Source: Cliona cf. orientalis
Taxonomy: Eukaryota > Porifera > Demospongiae > Clionaida > Clionaidae
Direction: 5' to 3'
Assembly (NCBI GenBank): GCA_963930775.1
Contig: OZ005703.1
Location: forward strand, 6,696,001 to 6,760,000
DNA length: 64,000 nucleotides
Shown: positions 28,660-57,524 of the stretch, piece after piece
Position numbering within the stretch: position 1 is the stretch's first letter
Layout: the number at the start of each line of letters is the position of its first letter
Program-made: the position numbers and the translations under genes
The notes under the pieces: generated by a model
Told to the model about the DNA's origin: nothing
The model's input: the letters and a program-made list of their open reading frames with translations, nothing else
Database searches by the model: none

Positions 28660-31600
28660 TCAATGGTCATTGCCATGTTTTTCTTCATTGCGGGCATAAA
28701 ACTGGTATGCAGCTCTGAGGCCAGACTCGAGGGCTCCTTGGATCCACCCATTGGTGAAGGAGATGGCTTCACCGGCAAAGAAGATTTGTGGGTCTATCTC
28801 AGGGTAGGGTCGCATCAGCCTGAAGACGACATTAGAGATCTCGTATGGCTTCAGAAGGGCGAATGCACCTTGTGAATACACATCGCTGTACCACGCTTTG
28901 ACTGCGCTGACTTCAAAGTTATCGACTATCTCGAGATGTATTTCTTTCAGCTCATCAACCGCCTCGGCTATCGCACTCTGTTCACTTTGTGAGCCAAACA
29001 AGAGAGCGTCTTCCTTCCATGTGTAGCACATCAGAACACCACGCTCATTGGAATCTTCCGGGCAGCTGGTAGGGTAGTGAATCTGACCAATGGGCAGATT
29101 TGTAAATGAGAAGCCGCCATAGAGCCCCAGCTTCTCCCAGAACTTGGTCTTGCACTGTAGCATGATCTTGGTAGAGGGACTGTAGAAGACTTCAGCCAAG
29201 CTATCTGCCATAGTGGAGCTGAGTGGAGGAAAGAAAGCTATTTGGCGGATAATGTTGAGAGGCACGGTCATAATCAGCACATCTCCAGGGAATTTCGTGT
29301 CGTACTTGTGTTGCGTTGTGGTATTTCGAGTGACCACGCTCACACCCCCTTCTTTACACTCCCTTCCGTGGTAGACCCTCCATGCCTGCTCACCAAATAT
29401 GATATCCTTTGAGAGGTTGACTTCATGATTCCATCCTTTGGTGTTTGGGCCCATGAAAGCACTTGGAAGCGAGTGCATTCCACCTTGGAAGGTATGCATA
29501 GGATCCTCCCCCCAAAACCCGAGCGAACTGCGGAGCAATTCTGCCAGACTGATGTCCAGTCCAGGGTTGTAGTTGTAGGCAGAGAAGCCAGTAATGGCTA
29601 CCTCGGGCCATGTCAGAAGCTGCTTCAGAGGCTGAAGGAGTTTTTCGATCCGGGGACTCCACAGTTGAGAAGAAGTAAGTCCCTCCGCACTCTCGAGTGT
29701 TTGCTTAATCCCGTCGTAGGTGGAGCGAAGAAAGTCGTTGACAGAGAAGCGACTCCACCTGTCTAACCAAATGGCCCAGTCTTCTTGATTGGGTTTGCCA
29801 TCACTGGCTGTGCGAATATCTTCCATCACGGGATTCAGAGTAGCATTGTAGTAGCTTGCTAATAGATTTATAGTGCATAATTATGTCAATTTAAGTAGTT
29901 GGTGCCATTGTAGTCAAGAACAATAAGTTTCTTTATACTCACCAATGTCGACAATTTTGTACTTTATCTTGATCTCTTCAGTCAGAATCTTGTCCCATCC
30001 ACTCCAAAATTTCTTGCAGAACTTTCCAGGATCCTTGTTCCATTCTATCAGTGAGCAATCACATTAATTTTATTCATGATCAGCTATTCTCTTTTAATTT
30101 CTCTTCTGTACATACACATATACACACACATGTACTAGTCTCGTACCCAGCCCCCTTCATGCACGCGCGAGAAAGGGTCTGATCAAAAGGGTCGCACTTC
30201 CTTGTCCTCGAGGTACGTATATTGCAGCCCAATCAGGTTGCAGAACCGTGGTCATATGACATTAGTGGAATGTAATTATGGGCAGTCTGTAACTACATGC
30301 ATGCGCTCAGCCTCTGCATATGGTACGGAAGTGGCGGTTAGTTTCTCTGGAATCGGCAATTACTGCATTCTAGCCGGACACGTTAGTGCGACCCTTTTGA
30401 TCGGACCTTTTCTCCTTTCTGGGTAGGAGGGGCTGGCCCGCAAGACTACACATGTACATGCACACACACAGGGACACACATACATGCACTTGCACCAATA
30501 GAGAGAGATATGTATGTGCGCATATATCATATCCACTTGCACAAGTAGTGAAGGGAAGCTTAGCTACTCTCGGCTTGGCTTCCCAAATTTCTAAAATGTC
30601 GCTCTCGACTATACCAGGAGAGGGGGGAGGATAAAATATGAGATATCAATAGAATGCTGACCTTCGGTGGGAATCTTATGCCCATAGAGGTAATAGTAGC
30701 CTTTGTCTGTCTGGTTGACGAATGGCTGGATTGGTAGCTGGAATCGCTCAATGCCATAGAAATCAGTCAGGTAGTGCTTGGAGTGCTGAGGTATCTTTCC
30801 TGAACTAGGGATACGCATTGCTCCAGCTGTAACGAAAAATGCACACTAATAAACATCACCGATTACATTTGTAGAGGCAAATAATATTATTACGGTGCCT
30901 CAATGCAATGAATTTTGTAACTCATTGTCTGTAGTGTCCCATGTAAACGCCCATGGGCACTCGTTCATAGCCTAAATTTTCACTATCTCGGGCATGTTTA
31001 ATATATTATTATGTGCCACATTTAATGATAGTGGTGGGCGCAAGTGATAGTGCAAAGTACAGTGGTGTGGAGGTGGTGGATTGCATGATGGAATCGTGGC
31101 CTTGCTTTGTGCAAACAATTTAGACTGCAAAATTTACCCAATTTTTGTAAGGAGTGTAATTATGATAGTCTAGTCTGGTGTGTGTAAATTATTTCCTCCC
31201 TCAATGAAAACTGTCTGCACCATTAAGTTTTCTCCCCCTTAGCTATATTATACTGTTTAAAAAAACCGCTCTAAGACAACAGTTTACACTAGTGATGACA
31301 TAATGCCTCTTCCTCTCTCACTTAATTGATCGCTGAATAATTGCTGGAGGGTGGTCGTTGAATGTAGTTTATAGCACAAAATTACTGGGTGGAGTCAATT
31401 TATCGCCATCGCGATTGTGACTCAATCTATACCCCTAGCTAGCGCTCCAGCATCGTGTTTTACTGGTATAAGCTTACTAGTAGTAGATGAGGCAGTAGCC
31501 TTTTCGTTGAAGACAGATGCTTCGTACTGTAAGGCTATAACTGCACTACTACAGCGAGTCGATGCGCGATCTAGCTAAATGTCGGCCACGCTTCAAACTT

Positions 31601-43254: not shown

Positions 43255-44289
43255 GTATGACCAATAATCTTGACTGTCAGGTTTTCATGAATCCTTACAA
43301 TCATAGCCTATTATTGTATGGACTAATGCATGGTTGACCAGATACTCTTGACGGTCAGGTTAATGAACCTCGGCACTTCTACAAATGTAGCTAGCTATTA
43401 ATTAAGAATTCGCTTACAACTCTCTTGAGGGTAGGGTGCAGCTGCACAAACCTTATGGGCCTGGAACCCGGGAAGCTAATTCCATTTCCATAGAGAATAT
43501 GGTCGGTTTTGCGTGAATGTTCCTCCAGTGGTTATGTCTATGCCCACGTGTGTAGCCCTATTAAAGAAATGCATCACATGCGGAATGAAGCCTTGCATGT
43601 GATTAATTCATGCCCTAGCTACGTAGCACCTTCTCAAGCCATGGGAGACTTGTATACCGTATTTATTCGAATAGTAGCCGCGGCTACTATTAATTTCAGC
43701 CTTGCTGGAGTGCGGCTACTAATCGAGGGCGGCTCTTATTCGAGGACGGCTTTTATTTATTTCGGAGGAATACCTTTGCGCCGACCCGGTGGTATCTTGT
43801 TGTGATGGACTGATTTTCAGGACTACTTTTCGAATAGACGAGTTATTATGATCGAAAAACAGCAGCAGAACCAAGCTAGGGACGTCTTCTGTCATGCTTT
43901 GGCCTCGAACTGACGATCGTTTATGGCGTGCGAACGTGGCCACACCCACTTCATTGTGTTCACGCATGCGTGCGGCTAGTCTCGCAAGCCAGACCCTCAC
44001 ACTCCGCAGCGTTTAGTTCTTTCAGGATAAACACGCGGGGGGAGGAGGGTCTGGCCCACTGCCTATACCCGTTTGGATCCACGATTGCATAACATTCGAA
44101 ACGTCACGTTCAGAACGTGACGTGACGTGACGTAGAGATTAATCGGCGCGGGCGCGGTGCTCAGATCGCCCGGCCGCGTACTAGGACCTCCGCGAAAATC
44201 GCCCCGCCCAACTAGTGGCGTCTCGATCTTGCGCGCTGCAGCTGTGCTGGAACCTAGTGAAGAGAAGTACTAAGCCAACGTCGTGTGAT

Positions 44290-47200
44290 ATGGAGCGCTG
44301 TAAAGCCTGCGGTGATGGGGTCTCCGTCAGTAGCTCTCGCCGCACCTTAGGAGCAGACTCAAGAAATACTCTTCTTTCTATCTCAAGGTCTATCGATTTT
44401 CCTGAGGCTACAGCACACTTTGGATCTGGGTACCTCTGTACGAAATGTTTTCGGTTGGCTGAGAGATATGGACGTCTCAAAAGCGAACTAGCAAATGTGG
44501 AAGAACTACTCAAAGGCAAACTACAATTCGTTTGTGCCAATCACGTTGGTGAAGTAAGTAGAGCAACAAAGAGGCCTTCAAGTGGAGAAGCAATTCCACG
44601 GAGGAAGAAATCACGGGTAGAGACGAGTGAAGGAGCTGTAATGGTAAATGCTCGTTGATATAGCAGCAATATCATTATTGTTAATATGCGTGCATTTCTA
44701 CCATTCTAATTTAATTAATAGGTTACTGTCAATAATCCTTCTCGTCAGAGGTCATACGTATTAACACCATCCAGACAAGCTATGGGTAAGACACTCGGAA
44801 GGAGATCTCATCAGTCATTTGCTAAGCATGCATTGAGTAACGAGACAGTCCGCCGCTTCATAATTTCTGGTTTAAAGAAATATGTAAAAGATGAAATGAA
44901 GCAGTTATGCTCCGATTCCTTTTTGTTGGATAAAGGGAAGGATAAATTATGCAACTTCACATGGAACGGACTTGATGCTGTCATCCAAAGTAAAGCTCCA
45001 ATTCTTCATTCTGTTCTCAAATCGAGCATTTCTGCACATTCCAATCTTGATGACCACGTAGTTGTTGGAATTTGTGCATCTATATTGGCGAAAGCTTGCC
45101 GCCCATCTGCCTGTTTAATCCAGCATATTATATCGGCCATACTCTATGCTGGACATTCTAGCAAACAGGTATGACATTGTCTGCATGTTCGATGGTGCAT
45201 GCATACATAATCCATTATATCTATCTACAAATTATTGGTTCGGGTAATGTGGATGATAGCTTATAAAACAGCTTTTTATTAGTATCCGATGAGGTGCATG
45301 CAGAATTATATAGCCATAATTATAATATTATTGTACTGTAAAAGTATACAGTCATGTATCTGTCAGTACAGTAGTGTACATGTGCATAGTATATTGTACT
45401 ACATAATGATGTATATTTGAGTGTGTGCATGTGTGACTGTATTGCAGTGTACACATGTGTAAGGTTGCTGTTTACTTAGCACTCTACTGTAGGTCCCTCC
45501 CTCCTACCCACAGTAGTCACTGACACATGCAGTGTGTATCATTAGGTGTGTGTAATTTATGCATATGCTATAATTCTTATGTGTAGGTATTTGCCAGGTT
45601 GCAAAAAATGGGAATTTGCCTTTCAAACTCCTGGTACACTGCGTGCAATTGACCAACTAGGACTAAAGCATGATGAACAAGTATTAGAATGGAGGGACAA
45701 TCTACTACCATTTGTGTCCACATCTCAGGTAATGATGGCTTCTGAGACCACATATAGACAAAATTAATACGTATTGCAGTATTTATCGTTCTACAATAAA
45801 CTTAATATGTATACCTTAGCATCCCCCATGGGTACATGGTTAAACATAACTCGAGATGGGCGCCTACCCCACGGGATATATTTGTATACATTGAAATGCA
45901 TGCAGTACATTAATGGTGCTTGCCCGGGACACTACGTTAATAGTACGTAGCTACTTGGCAATTTTCGTTCATGGGGAGGAGAGATTCCGGTCAAAGAGGA
46001 AATCCATGTAGTGCCCTCTCTCTCTGTATTAATCAAATTAACGATAATAATTATACATACAGGGAATCATTGCCGCAACAAAGTCATCTTTGATGATTGA
46101 AAATGACCTTTCCCTTCAATTTTCTGACTCAGAGAGTTTTGACGAAATATTTAACCATGTGTTCGATGATCAAGATGATCAGCCAGCCACCATACGAGAA
46201 TCAACCCCATTCAGCGATTGCAGTACAATTATTAGTGATGATCCTCTTCCTCCCAGTCCTATCATCCCTTTCAGTCCCACTGCCCCAGACATTTCCTTTC
46301 TGAGTAGTTATAGTACATCATCTCCTGCCAAGAGCAGTGCACACAAGCAAATGGAAGCTTGTGATATCATAAGGAGCTCGACCCCAGAAAGAGGACACAC
46401 ATTGCAAGAGGAGAGATCTTCCCAAGAGATAAGCATGATATCACATGACGAAGCACTTGGCCACTCACAAGACCAAATGAGCTTCTCCACCGATCAACTT
46501 TGTCCCACGTGTGAAGGTGTTAGCCTATCCCCAGAGCATAACACCATATGTAAACCATATCTATGTTACAAACTGATTGGTGATAACATAGATAAAACAA
46601 TAAAGCCTAGGGACATGAGGGTAGACCATCAAAGCCAATCTTTGCATTATTTCAATATGTATGCAGTTCAAGATCGAGTAGATCTCAGCCATTTGTCCAA
46701 CGAAAGTAGAATTATTGACCCAGATGAGATTGATTTCAGCAAGTTTTTGCCCCTAGCAGAAGATTACGAAGCAATTACCGACAACTTTGTTGTTTTAATA
46801 TCGAAAATACTAGTGGAATATTTACCACACTTCTCTAAGTATGCTCCAGTTGTTCCAAAGGATATCCAACACAAGTATTCAAAGGAGATGTCCAAAAAGT
46901 CAAATGTGGTGAGTTTTATCTATTATCACCGATGCTAGATAATTATAATTTTATTATAAATATTATGTAGATTCCATTGGGTGTTATTCTCAAGAATGAA
47001 ACGGTTCTAAATGAGATGGTGGAAATCCTCGATTCCATACATAAGTATGTACCCACAAAACGGACAACTCAAGAATTTGACGTACCTCATGGGGATGAAG
47101 TTACTGGCATCGAACACGTTTCAGTTCAAGTTGACCATTTTCATCATATTCTCCTGGGTGGTGATCAACTAACAGTGGCCAGGATCCGTGGTGCTCAAAG

Positions 47201-48424
47201 TGTTCGAAACAACTCAGAAAATGGTCGCAGTTGTCTTGGTGGGTTCATTCCAGTAGTGGAAGACTGGCATACGAAGATGTGCTATTTGAAGGTAGGCAAA
47301 ATTATATTATGTGTAGCTAATGTTTACAATGATGTCATTCAATCCTATAATAGTATGTATGTGCTATATATAAGAATTTCATTTACTAGTATCAGTAATT
47401 AATGTTTTGTATTATCTGTTTTACAAACAAGGTTGTATGGACCAGGCTGTACAAGACAAGCTCAAGTCAAGAAGGAGGTACTCTCTATCAACTTCGAAAT
47501 CTGATTAACCGAAGGAATGTTGTTTGCAACCCCAAAAACGACATGAATTCCTGTGAGGATTTTTTTGAACTGGTAACAACGGCACACATTATAGTTGCTG
47601 CTATGAAAATATTCGGAATGAGCAAAATTGATGATAAACCAGATGAAACGTTGCTCCCATCTGACACAGACAACCCAGCAATGGTCTTGAAAGCAGCAGT
47701 AAAAAAAATATTATCGTCGTTCGTGGATTTGAGCTTCCCAGTAGAAACAAAGAAACGCCCACAATCGATGGATCATATACATGAGTATGGTAAAGAAGTT
47801 CTTACGATGGGCTTGTTCCTGTTGGAGTTTAAGGATTTGATCAGGTTAGGTGCTGGAGAGAGGGATCTTCGGTGTTGGAAATTTATGTTTCTTTTTTTTC
47901 GAGCAACAGGTCATACAAATTATGCATTAGAATCATTTAACTTGCTATGTCACTACTATTACTTACTGCCACCTCGATATGCCGAGCAATTGATATGGAG
48001 CCGCTTTGTGAATACACATGGCTCTTGTGGTAGAAATGTGTCTGGTGACCTCCATATGGAACATTTAAATAGAGTTTGTAAGGATGCGGTAGCCCATCTT
48101 GGCGCCAACAAAACTCCTGGTGCTATTGTCAGAATTGGAAAGGTGGTGGGCGTCATTTCGAATACATTGAGCAATTTTGATAAGGTCACTGGGGTCACCT
48201 ACCTTTCAGGTGAACATACCAGAAGATCTGACTCGGGTGATTTGAAGATGATAATTGAAGAATTACTCAAAAGCAAGGTATTTGACTGTATCCCAAACAG
48301 AAAGCACCACTCTTTTAAATCATTACGTTCAAATGTGTTCCGATCTATTAACAAAAGAAAATTTAACACCTGGATGACAGATAACTTTAAGAAACTACAT
48401 CTTGCCACTAACTTTAACAAATAA
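44290..48424 (+). CDS. DUF6589-like protein of the 6.3-kb element (candidate transposase, one frameshift)
   Basis: Six exons, all introns phase 0: 44290-44643, 44722-45168, 45587-45728, 46063-46908, 46971-47291 and 47432-48424, about 1033 codons. An N-terminal CKAC ... CTKC pair may bind zinc. The C-terminal half has the run LHYFNMYAVQDRVD, GGDQLTVARIRGAQ, VVEDWHTKM, LRNLINRRNV, DDFFELV-like, and HMEHLNRVCKDAVAHLGANK. I associate these with the DUF6589 family of animal and fungal proteins from memory. Conserved D, ED-H and E-H residues are compatible with a metal-dependent nuclease, but this is inference. Exon 3 is 142 nt and carries one extra base near 45629-45633: the frame reads KMGICLSNS, then must shift to GTLRAIDQLG. 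All other exons are multiples of three, so this is a single indel or a sequence error. Confidence 0.8.
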
Positions 48425-48549
48425 TCCATGTATGAATATTAACTCAATGCCTATTATTTTTTCATTACAATAATAATTATTAATGTCATGCTTTCATTCG
48501 ACATTTTTATGTAATATTTTTGTTTTGCAGTGAAGGACATTTTACAATA

Positions 48550-50011
48550 CTACAGCAAGGGGAAAGAATTACACAAACAGTCACTACAGCTAGGATAGTT
48601 AGAACATACGTCACAACACGAACAACCATGAGCTGAATGTGCATTGAAATCGAAGTGCTTCAACAACAGTGATCTTCTACATACACTTGTGTTCTTACAG
48701 TAGTCAATCATAGCCTGTGTTGTCCTTCGTGAATCCAAATCTGACTTTTTGTAGTATAGAAGAGCACATGCTGACTTTCCGTCACGCCCACCCCGTCCAC
48801 TCTCCTGCACATACATTTCAATGTCGTCGGAGACCCCCCAGTGGACCACTTGCCTCACATCAGGGCAGTCTATCCCCATCCCAAATGCGATTGTACATAT
48901 AATGACTCGTAAGGGAGAGTCCACCTTACAAAAGGACTCCACAACAGTGCGTTTTACACTCTCATCAGTAGCACTCATATACATGTCTACAAGCCTGAAT
49001 CGAGAGAGATTGGGTGCTCCAACAGGCTCTGTAAACTCTTCTTCTAAGTTAGACAGAAAGAACTGATAAAGCATAGCACATTCTTCACACCTCTTACAGA
49101 ATATGATCACTCTTGGCATATTTGCTCGTTTGTGCTTGAGTTTGTCGGCTATGGGAGTGAATACCTCTTCAACAGAACTCTTCTGACGCACCCAATAAGT
49201 TATGTTTGATTTTTCTGGAGACACAGAAACAACCTTTGGCGATAACATACCAAGAATGGCAATAATTTTGTTCCTTGTCATTTTTGTGGCCGTAGCTGTG
49301 AGTGCCATTATGTTAACTGTTGAGGGGATAAGACTACGAACTTGTCCAAGATTGGAAAATTCTCGCCGAAAGTATTCACCCCTGCAACAGATCATGGGAA
49401 TAAAATTATTCTAAGTTATAATACAGATCATTTATTTACCACTTAGTAACACAGTGTGCTTCATCGACAATGAAAGCTTTAAGTTTAGTCTGGTAAATTG
49501 TTGATCTCAGCATTTCTCTCCATTTAAGGTTCACCATGAGCAATTCAGGGCTTATGTAAACTAGTTGATACTCTCCCTTGATAACTCCATCCTGCATGCT
49601 CTTATTACTAGAATCTGCATTTACATAAGCTGTAGCCAATCCTCTAGCAGATAGATTATTGACCTACATATAGTATAAAGTTAAGTAGTATGCCAATGGT
49701 CAGATCTAAATCATTGAATATGTTATTCATCAATCATACAACTACTGTGACTGCCAACTTACTTGATCCCTCATAAGAGCTGTTAATGGTGAAACAACAA
49801 TGGCAATACATCCTTGCTCTCCCAGTAGAATGTCAAAAGCAAAAGGCAATACAGCAAAACACACAGTCTTTCCACTACCGGTAGGCAGACTGATAAAGAC
49901 ATCATTGCCGTTGACAAACGCCACAGTAGCCTCTTCTTGCTGTGGGGTCAACTTCGAATAACCGATACGACAGGCACCTGCCCTGACGGCTTCAGTGGTA
50001 GAGGGCATCAT
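48550..50011 (-). CDS. RecQ-family ATP-dependent DNA helicase carried by the transposon
   Basis: Exons 49763-50011, 49440-49663 and 48550-49381 sum to 435 codons (434 aa). Superfamily-2 motifs in order: LTPQQEEA (Q/motif 0), PTGSGKT (Walker A), VVSPLTALMRDQ (Ia), YISPELL (Ib), DEAH (Walker B), ALTATAT (III), VIIFCKRCEEC (IV), CTIAFGMGIDCPDVRQVVHW (V), YVQESGRGGRDG (VI). A RecQ-type zinc cluster follows: YCKN-CRR-KHF, then C-CCDVC. There is no RQC winged-helix or HRDC domain. ATP-driven 3'-5' unwinding is expected from the family. It lies inside the TIRs, convergent with the DUF6589-like gene, so it is probably a captured host-type helicase that assists transposition. The frame is fully open. 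Confidence 0.9.
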
Positions 50012-50408
50012 CAAGATCTATGTGACAACATAATAATTCTTCATTAGACCGACCGACCGCGCGTGCGCGCGTATACGTCCAGGCCAGCTAGCTCGCGCGG
50101 TGCCCGATACGCGGCGCGCGCGTTACGTAGGATAACGTGACGTAGACAGCATGCTTCAATCTGATTGGCCAGACAAGATCTTGTCTGGCGGATCCAAACG
50201 GGTATAGGCAGTGGGCCAGACCCTCCTCCCCCCGCGTGTTTATCCTGAAAGAACTAAACGCTGCGGAGTGTGAGGGTCTGGCTTGCGAGACTAGCGTGCG
50301 GCTACTATTCGAGGGCGGCTACTATATCTTTGGTGGACCTCCAGGTGCGGCTACTATTCGAGGGCGGCTACTATTCGGGGTGCGGCTTCTATTCGAATAA
50401 ATACGGTA

Positions 50409-52333
50409 TACGCAGCTTCTATAGTTAGACCAAGGTCACATGCAACTTCCTATGTATATAATATTATATAATATGTACTATAGTATACTCAATTATAATG
50501 CATGCCTGTACAGTGTTTTTACCAAAATTAAATTATTCACAAAATTTAATAATACACTGGCCATGTCATATCAGTCTTCTTGCTTGTCGTATGATACTAA
50601 TTGTAGACAGGGGTGTAGCTTAGTTTGACTTACGTACAATAATTAAGTTATCTGGAGGTATATACCTGTTCATTAGTGCAACACATATACCCTGAATAGC
50701 TATAATAATATTATTATGCACGTGTATTAAGTCTTAAAACACTGAAATATTATGACCATTAATTTTAATTAATAATTATTGCTACCCTTGGCAACAGAAG
50801 TCCATCAAGTTGTCAAGCACCCTTATAGGTGCACAGGTTGTTATTTCAATAATTAAAACGGCTAATATAATTCATTATCCTACAATAATTGTACACCTGT
50901 CACTGTATACATGTTTTTACCTCAAAATATCATGTCATCTTATCCATACATGTTTATGATAGTTGTGCTACTTCAGAGGCGGAATCATAGTAATATTATT
51001 ATTATTGTTGGCCCAATATCTAGCAATCATAGTTTTAATAGGCAAATTCCGAGCATAATATGGGGTGTGGGTGATCATAGGGTAGGCCAATCATGGTATA
51101 ATAATTAATGGAGTCATGGGCCCACAAAAATTAAAGTTGCAAGACCTTTAGTGATTGTTATTGGGATGCAATTTGACTATGCATACATCTCTTTAACTAT
51201 TAGATATACACGCACTATAGACTGTTATTGATATTGCACAATGCATACTGACAGTGTGTGGTTCAAGCCTTGCAAGGTACCTAAATTGCTGCAGCTACTA
51301 GCAGCTGTTGACACTTGCCACTAAATTAATAAGCTTACAACTGCTGAGTACCACCCAAACAACTAACTCAGCGTAATAGTATGATAGGATAAAATTACAA
51401 TAATAATATTGTATGCATTGCATGCATGGCACTTACAAAGCTTAGCTATATACATGCACAGTAATGCAGTAGTGTCTTTCTGCAATATAAAGTCATTGCA
51501 GCAATGTTCCAGTACTATTATTATTGGTTGTGATATTGACATCCATGTACATATCATGTAACTAGTACCTCCCCCCACACACAATCACAGTAAAATTGCA
51601 TGATGAAAAAATTCAAATTGGAGTGGCCTTATATTACTATACTATGTGTAAATTATCCTGTGAATGTGGTATAGAAACTACAAATAATCTACTACGGTAT
51701 GCACTGAGTTGTGTGTGACCTCCTTTATTGTGATTAGCTATCAGCGTGTTTCAAACCACTTAACCTGTGATGAGCATGGAATGTATAGAGATAGTCTCTA
51801 TGGGAATTTTATTATCATGAACACTTGACCATGCACTCAGTAGCTGCATAGTTGAAATGGTGTAGGTGGTAAAGGTCGTCAATGTAGTGGGTTCACTTCA
51901 CTGTACAGTACGATGCCGGTGCCTCAGTCGCAGACTAGCCTCGGATCATCGGGAATCTGAGAGTGTCTCTGGACCTCGATAGTGAAAATTTTCAACGCAA
52001 GCTAAGAACTCAACAGCACAGTACAGCTAGACTGGTCCGGCGGCACGCATCGCTGCTTATGGTGCGTGCTATATAATTATAGCGCAGGGCTATCTATATA
52101 TATATCCATGGGATTACGTGGGAATTTTATTATCATTATCAGAGTGGGAATTTTATTATCATTATGGGCTCATGGTCTGTGGAGGCAGCTGTTTGACGAC
52201 CCTTTACCAGAGAATAGGAACAGGTGGGTGGATGACAGATGGACAGACAAAAATCACCAATAATTGCACTAAATGCTTCACCTATGCAAAAAGGTTTAAC
52301 TATACAAACCATGACCAGCCATGATTGACTTAA
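50409..52333. other. Gene-free stretch
   Basis: No open frame with recognisable features and no RNA gene was found. The sequence is AT-rich with scattered short A/T runs. TGGGAATTTTATTATCATTA occurs twice in tandem at about 52119-52165 and a similar string recurs near 51800. Confidence 0.5.
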
Positions 52334-57430: not shown

Positions 57431-57524
57431 TAGTCTCGAAACCAGACCGCTCCCACCGCAGCGTTCAGTTCTTCCAGGATGAAGAACTGAACGCTGCGGT
57501 GGGAGCGGTCTGGTTTCGAGACTA
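57431..57524. mobile_element. 94-bp palindromic mini-transposon with 9-bp target duplication
   Basis: Two perfectly complementary 44-nt arms around a 6-nt loop (CAGGAT). The ends are TAGTCTCG and CGAGACTA, flanked by ACTATGTAT on both sides (57422-57430 and 57525-57533). The arm resembles the tip of the 6.3-kb element's TIR: TAGTCTCGAAACCAGACC against TAGTCTCGCAAGCCAGACC, then CCGCAGCGTT and CAGGAT. It sits between the divergent promoters of K and L. Confidence 0.92.

Follow-up and report, generated by a model that had tools for sequence, protein, structure and literature searches.

A sponge DNA transposon that pairs a DUF6589 protein, probably its transposase, with a RecQ helicase and is best filed as AcademH-type

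A 64-kb stretch of contig C15 of Cliona cf. orientalis (the window, with position 1 at its first letter) carries a DNA transposon of 6,317 bp, at positions 43977-50293, in which a gene of the Pfam family DUF6589 and a gene for a RecQ helicase lie tail to tail between terminal inverted repeats (TIRs). The transposon is real and recently mobile. We consider it highly probable that it is an autonomous-type element of the AcademH kind, with the DUF6589 protein as DDE transposase and RecQ as a selected accessory enzyme. The analysis covered the window and the 216.8-Mb, 149-contig assembly; all genome counts are lower bounds, since the best candidates were scored in each search (102 of 338 for DUF6589, 136 of 280 for RecQ and 40 of 290 for the TIR).

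Ends, target duplications and mobility

The left TIR (104 bp, 43977..44080, plus strand) starts with the tip TAGTCTCG, followed by CCAGACCC and, deeper in, by GGGTCTGG in inverted orientation; the right TIR (104 bp, 50190..50293, minus strand) is identical to it. Both are flanked by the 9-bp sequence GCGTGCGGC (43968..43976 and 50294..50302, no strand assigned), the target-site duplication (TSD). By eye, the TSD of the window copy by itself can be read as 5, 7 or 9 bp, but the ends TAGTCTCG...CGAGACTA were found with exact 9-bp TSDs in 18 more two-ended copies of the family, which makes 19 of 19 such copies examined (18 fetched loci and the window; L041 and L042 were left out of this count, since what was read of them shows a single end or an interruption). 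The identical 104-bp TIRs and the 9-bp duplication described in the initial annotation of this DNA were thus confirmed.

The TIR search, from which 20 loci were fetched, yielded two further full-length copies. One of them, L039, is 99.97% identical to the window copy, from which it differs by one substitution and one indel, and the other, L040, is 98.1% identical. Short two-ended derivatives of 425-468 bp occupy 16 of the 20 loci. Alignment of five of these derivatives with the complete element gave matches over about 135 bp at each end and none over a middle of about 190 bp; the 15 derivatives compared with L043 are 93-100% identical to it. The element has therefore moved in the past and has generated 9-bp duplications in doing so. 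Empty sites are also present: the flanks joined with one TSD match other genomic places without interruption, with 5 of the 40 scored places at 100% (rounded) over bases 1-200 and two of these at full score, which means that the transposon inserted into one copy of a different repeat that is itself abundant (these 40 places were scored out of 698 candidates). This host repeat occupies window positions 43652-43976 and 50303-50411, about 434 bp in all; its ends are inverted repeats of 30 bp that are 97% complementary, and it contains GTGCGGCTACTATTCGAGG units.

The DUF6589 and RecQ genes

The gene content of the element consists of two intron-bearing genes in the tail-to-tail arrangement noted at the outset, DUF6589 with six exons on the plus strand and RecQ with three on the minus strand, the stop codons facing each other across 125 bp. 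Exon ends were set by eye from GT/AG and the reading frame. Exon 1 of the DUF6589 gene (44290..44643) contains the start and a CxxC...CxxC arrangement, perhaps zinc-binding, and is followed by exon 2 (44722..45168) and exon 3 (45587..45728); the latter has one extra base in the window copy, because of which the transposase frame is broken there, while L039 and L040 lack the extra base and have a frame open throughout, the protein of L039 comprising 1,033 residues. Exon 4 (46063..46908) encodes the first D of the presumed catalytic triad, in GDNID (codon at 46582), exon 5 (46971..47291) the second D, in GGDQLT (codon 47163), together with an EDWH motif from 47259, and exon 6 (47432..48424) the E, in MEHLNR (codon 48059), and the stop. 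The open reading frame (ORF) 47399-48424 matches DUF6589 (PF20231) at E 1.3e-29. This Pfam scan covered seven ORFs at E up to 0.1, with exon 3 and RecQ exon 2 lying outside them and the spliced transposase not scanned whole, and the over-cut-off matches in these ORFs were to DUF6589 and helicase domains only.

The DUF6589 protein is probably the transposase, as had been proposed; its nearest DUF6589 relatives make a demosponge the most likely source of the genome. The presumed triad is near-invariant among the aligned relatives (D in 29/29, D in 28/29 and E in 22/22), and the four cysteines of exon 1 are kept in 21/22, 22/23, 24/25 and 23/25. For structural models of two relatives, P0001 and P0020, rather than of the window protein, DDE transposases ranked first in VIA-align, the top matches of both being hAT (Hermes), the P element and RAG1/Transib. 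Conservation and the models of relatives together support a DDE role, and they suggest a function, with candidate catalytic residues, for a family whose Pfam entry gives none and for which no paper naming DUF6589 turned up in the literature searched.

The RecQ gene starts in exon 1 (49763..50011, minus strand), which encodes the Walker A motif TGSGKT (49865-49882); exon 2 (49439..49663) carries the DEAH box, VDEAHC (49451-49468), and exon 3 (48550..49380) the Helicase_C region, motif VI as QESGRGGRDG (48778-48807), the zinc-region cysteines (48604-48624) and the stop. The Walker A, DEAH and motif VI sequences reported initially are thus in place. The protein matches DEAD, Helicase_C and RecQ_Zn_bind in Pfam, and TIGR00614, all over cut-off; the Pfam scan revealed neither an RQC nor an HRDC domain in it. 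Judged by Walker A, DEAH, motif VI and the zinc-binding region, the helicase belongs to the RecQ family.

Linkage, co-divergence and selection of the two genes

The genome contains 122 PF20231 matches, which gave 102 scored DUF6589 loci. A RecQ exon lies within 3 kb of 72 of them, in tail-to-tail orientation every time (72/72), against an expectation of about 0.34, and a match to a second form of RecQ was found beside 24 of the remaining 30, again tail to tail in all 24. RecQ or a related form thus accompanies 96 of the 102 loci, tail to tail in all 96, and the check proposed initially, whether other copies lack the RecQ gene, does not refute the pairing. From the other side, DUF6589 was found within 1.5 kb of 28 of the best 30 RecQ loci, tail to tail in 28/28; of the two exceptions, L026 and L029, the first has a DUF6589 gene farther out. 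The DUF6589 and RecQ genes travel together, and in this one animal genome their pairing is near-obligatory among the loci scored.

The divergence of the two genes is parallel, with r of 0.90 over 28 loci and 0.48 over 16 collapsed loci, a value reached by 0 of 5000 permutations in each case; the DUF6589 segments compared are not all from one part of the protein. Both genes are under purifying selection: the pooled ratio of nonsynonymous to synonymous rates (dN/dS), calculated by hand for seven within-family pairs, was about 0.31 for RecQ and about 0.28 for DUF6589. The diverged pairs L009/L015 and L025/L036 were excluded because dS was saturated, and among the pairs kept the DUF6589 segments of L019, L021, L014 and L020 have one stop each, that of L020 being short. 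Between L039 and L040, the whole transposase gene differs by 15 synonymous and 9 replacement changes and the whole RecQ gene by 6 and 3.

The second RecQ form is part of another DUF6589-RecQ pair, deeply diverged but likewise arranged tail to tail, found at L079 (C8:4842500-4846000) and L080 (C18:7524400-7526900). Its identification as RecQ is based on a single locus: RecQ proteins matched L080 in tblastn, and the motifs there read PTGGGKT, DEAHC and GRAGRNG; the 24 second-form loci counted above were recognised by matches to the last ORF of this form, the weakest at E 3.5e-5. No exact TAGTCTCG tip occurs in the two stretches read at L079 and L080, which cover no whole element.

Two side observations concern the same genes. 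Six dispersed 180-bp RecQ fragments on contig C1 (30799107, 23015288, 37086992, 24681735, 30411849 and 27984410), each with one TGA and each aligning with the same 60 query residues at 57-58% identity, are perhaps a repeat carrying a piece of RecQ. In JGI metagenomes, the DUF6589 protein P0020 and the RecQ protein P0056 are each encoded on 2 contigs, the longest of 5616 bases, and possibly represent the same gene pair in another organism.

A shared end module and micro-elements

The tip TAGTCTCG is not confined to the family of the window copy. Three other families, fully read (L059-L064), have the same tip and 9-bp TSDs in 6/6 cases; at 22 of 30 RecQ loci the exact tip was found no more than 1.6 kb out on the 5' side of RecQ, and at 21 of these 22 an exact GGGTCTGG lies at most 110 bp from a tip. 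The module TAGTCTCG-N(2-5)-CCAGACCC-N(12-42)-GGGTCTGG, the last part inverted, has 913 matches in the genome (460 forward and 453 reverse, palindromic micro-elements adding to both strands), and its reversed control has 0 genome-wide. Pairs of tips were accompanied by a 9-bp TSD, with at most 2 mismatches, in 28/70 cases against 0/173 for six shuffled tips; this sample is non-random, as the loci had been fetched for element ends, and because of overlapping loci it comes to 24 distinct rows.

The module also bounds micro-elements of 55, 58, 59, 94 and 95 bp, which are little beyond two abutting ends and have 9-bp TSDs (one TSD has one mismatch, and one element has a one-mismatch tip). One of them, of 94 bp, lies in the window at 57431-57524; its two TAGTCTCG ends form an almost perfect palindrome, and its TSD, ACTATGTAT, is exact. 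Another family that shares the tip is represented in the window, at 30136-30448, by a short derivative of 313 bp, whose right tip has one mismatch and whose TSD is CACATGTAC.

The proximal arm of the module varies (CCACACCC, CCAGCCCC, CCAGACCA and others) without compensating changes, which makes a protein-binding site likelier than a stem; going by the sequences, the end module looks more like the former. The idea that hairpin ends are a selected feature is weakened by the same drift. The shared module and the 55-95-bp micro-elements are possibly new.

Proposed mechanism and alternative explanations

In the reading preferred here, the DUF6589 protein would act as a DDE (RNase-H-fold) transposase binding the inverted ends, perhaps by contacts of the CxxC/CxxC region at its N-terminus with the motifs conserved in those ends. 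It would then cut the element free and join it to the target across a stagger of 9 bp, steps that are proposed because of the TSDs and the DDE evidence. RecQ, carried and kept by selection, would serve as an accessory enzyme, whose most likely task is to open the ends of the element or else, once strand transfer is complete, to clear either the transpososome or the gapped joint. That the N-terminus binds DNA, that RecQ acts at such a step and that the element moves by cut and paste is what we infer. The near-obligatory pairing and joint divergence of the two genes make such a helicase helper in DNA transposition directly testable, and the recently active, nearly identical copies can serve for this purpose.

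Several points weigh against this reading. The structure prediction suggested in the initial annotation, made for the two relatives, put DDE transposases at the top with VIA-align, but Foldseek alone gave no significant match for the same relatives' models (best E 0.39 and 0.48), the P element appearing at E 1.1 for the second of them. No RecQ was found within 3 kb at 6 of the 102 DUF6589 loci, and for 47 of the 119 RecQ clusters no neighbouring DUF6589 is listed; at least 5 of these 47 do have one by the scan of the best 30 loci, and the remainder comprises copies that were not scored, fragments and RecQ genes of the host. The last ORF of the second form (L079) had 0 PDB sequence matches at E up to 1. 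None of the four XPG matches in the genome (0/4) is flanked by DUF6589 within about 1.5 kb, so a pair of AcademX build was not found. Finally, the action of RecQ, excision and homology between the DUF6589 and Academ transposases are all putative.

It is unlikely that transposition proceeds via RecQ-unwound ends that fold back on themselves, which would make RecQ integral to the reaction; this view is prompted by the end module and by the micro-elements with their 9-bp TSDs, since a duplex of 55-95 bp could be bent only with difficulty to bring its ends together in a complex, unlike an unwound, folded strand.

A separate, undescribed superfamily, built of a DUF6589 transposase, RecQ and 9-bp TSDs and convergent with AcademH, is distinctly unlikely. 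The comparison with Academ was made by description, no paper naming DUF6589 turned up and Pfam gives the family no function, as stated above, and neither the end module nor the micro-elements appear in the passages of the Academ literature drawn on here. Nevertheless, the helicase, the 9-bp TSD, the presumed DDE transposase, the inverted ends and the occurrence in an animal all fit AcademH as it appears in those passages, and Academ has been reported in bivalves (passages of PMC10294476), a group to which one DUF6589 relative, from Mytilus, also belongs.

We regard it as very unlikely that RecQ is a passenger, kept by chance or for the benefit of the host. Its action in transposition is putative, and the neighbourless RecQ clusters would suit such a gene; against this stand its presence, itself or as the related form, at nearly all DUF6589 loci in a single orientation, its purifying selection inside element families and its divergence in step with the transposase.

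Long TIRs and TSDs of about 9 bp, as seen here, are typical of Mutator-like elements (MULEs). A WH downstream of the second D, present in 27/27 aligned rows, also resembles the C/DxxH motif common to MuDR, hAT, P, Kolobok and Dada (passages of PMC9587614). A MULE-type transposon that picked up host genes is nevertheless scarcely credible, given that the motif reads ExxH in 26/27 rows, that no MULE domain was found in the seven ORFs at E up to 0.1, that DUF6589 is matched by 30/30 protein relatives, with no MULE family among their matches, and that the DUF6589-RecQ pair is retained across many diverged families.

Comparison with known systems

By its build, the sponge element is best filed as AcademH-type, a lineage that, judging from the title of a 2020 paper by Kojima (Mob DNA 11:15), reportedly occurs in animals and fungi. 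Helitrons, which are likewise transposons with a helicase, have no TIR and no TSD and encode proteins of the Rep/Pif1 type, whereas the sponge element has TIRs, TSDs and a RecQ-type helicase. The hAT and P elements duplicate 8 bp and RAG1/Transib 5 bp, and none of them is known to carry RecQ; the likeness to hAT (Hermes), suggested by models of relatives, would be one of fold only, with the TSD differing at 9 bp, and no hAT, P element or RAG1/Transib domain was found in the seven ORFs scanned.

Kolobok elements duplicate TTAA, and in this KolobokH differs from the sponge element, with its varied 9-bp TSDs. As DNA transposons with a RecQ helicase, KolobokH and Kolobok-1_CCri resemble it, and in Kolobok-1_CCri, from a red alga, RecQ is encoded on the complementary strand (passages of PMC9587614), an arrangement also seen in the sponge element. 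The helicase domains DEAD and Helicase_C are those of AcademH or KolobokH in passages of PMC10799480.

The initial annotation had taken the build for an unfamiliar one that might define a poorly described superfamily, a claim that is not supported. An entry "RecQ Helicase in Academ" has been in print since 2013, with Kapitonov et al. named as its source (passage of PMC3627910), and AcademH is described as having TSDs of 9 or 10 bp, related to its helicase (passages of PMC10045372). With RecQ in Academ and KolobokH and a helicase in AcademH, helicase-bearing DNA transposons beyond Helitrons were already known; putative non-autonomous Academ elements are likewise on record, from Marasmius (passages of PMC8290104). 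AcademX, the other lineage of the Academ superfamily, differs in its TSDs of 3 or 4 bp and its nuclease (passages of PMC10045372) from the sponge element, which has 9 bp and a RecQ helicase and in whose scanned ORFs Pfam found no nuclease domain. With AcademH, in contrast, the sponge element shares a helicase gene, here RecQ, a 9-bp TSD (in all two-ended copies examined and in the three other families) and inverted ends, here 104 bp long and identical; likened by published descriptions rather than by sequences, the two show no difference among the features compared.

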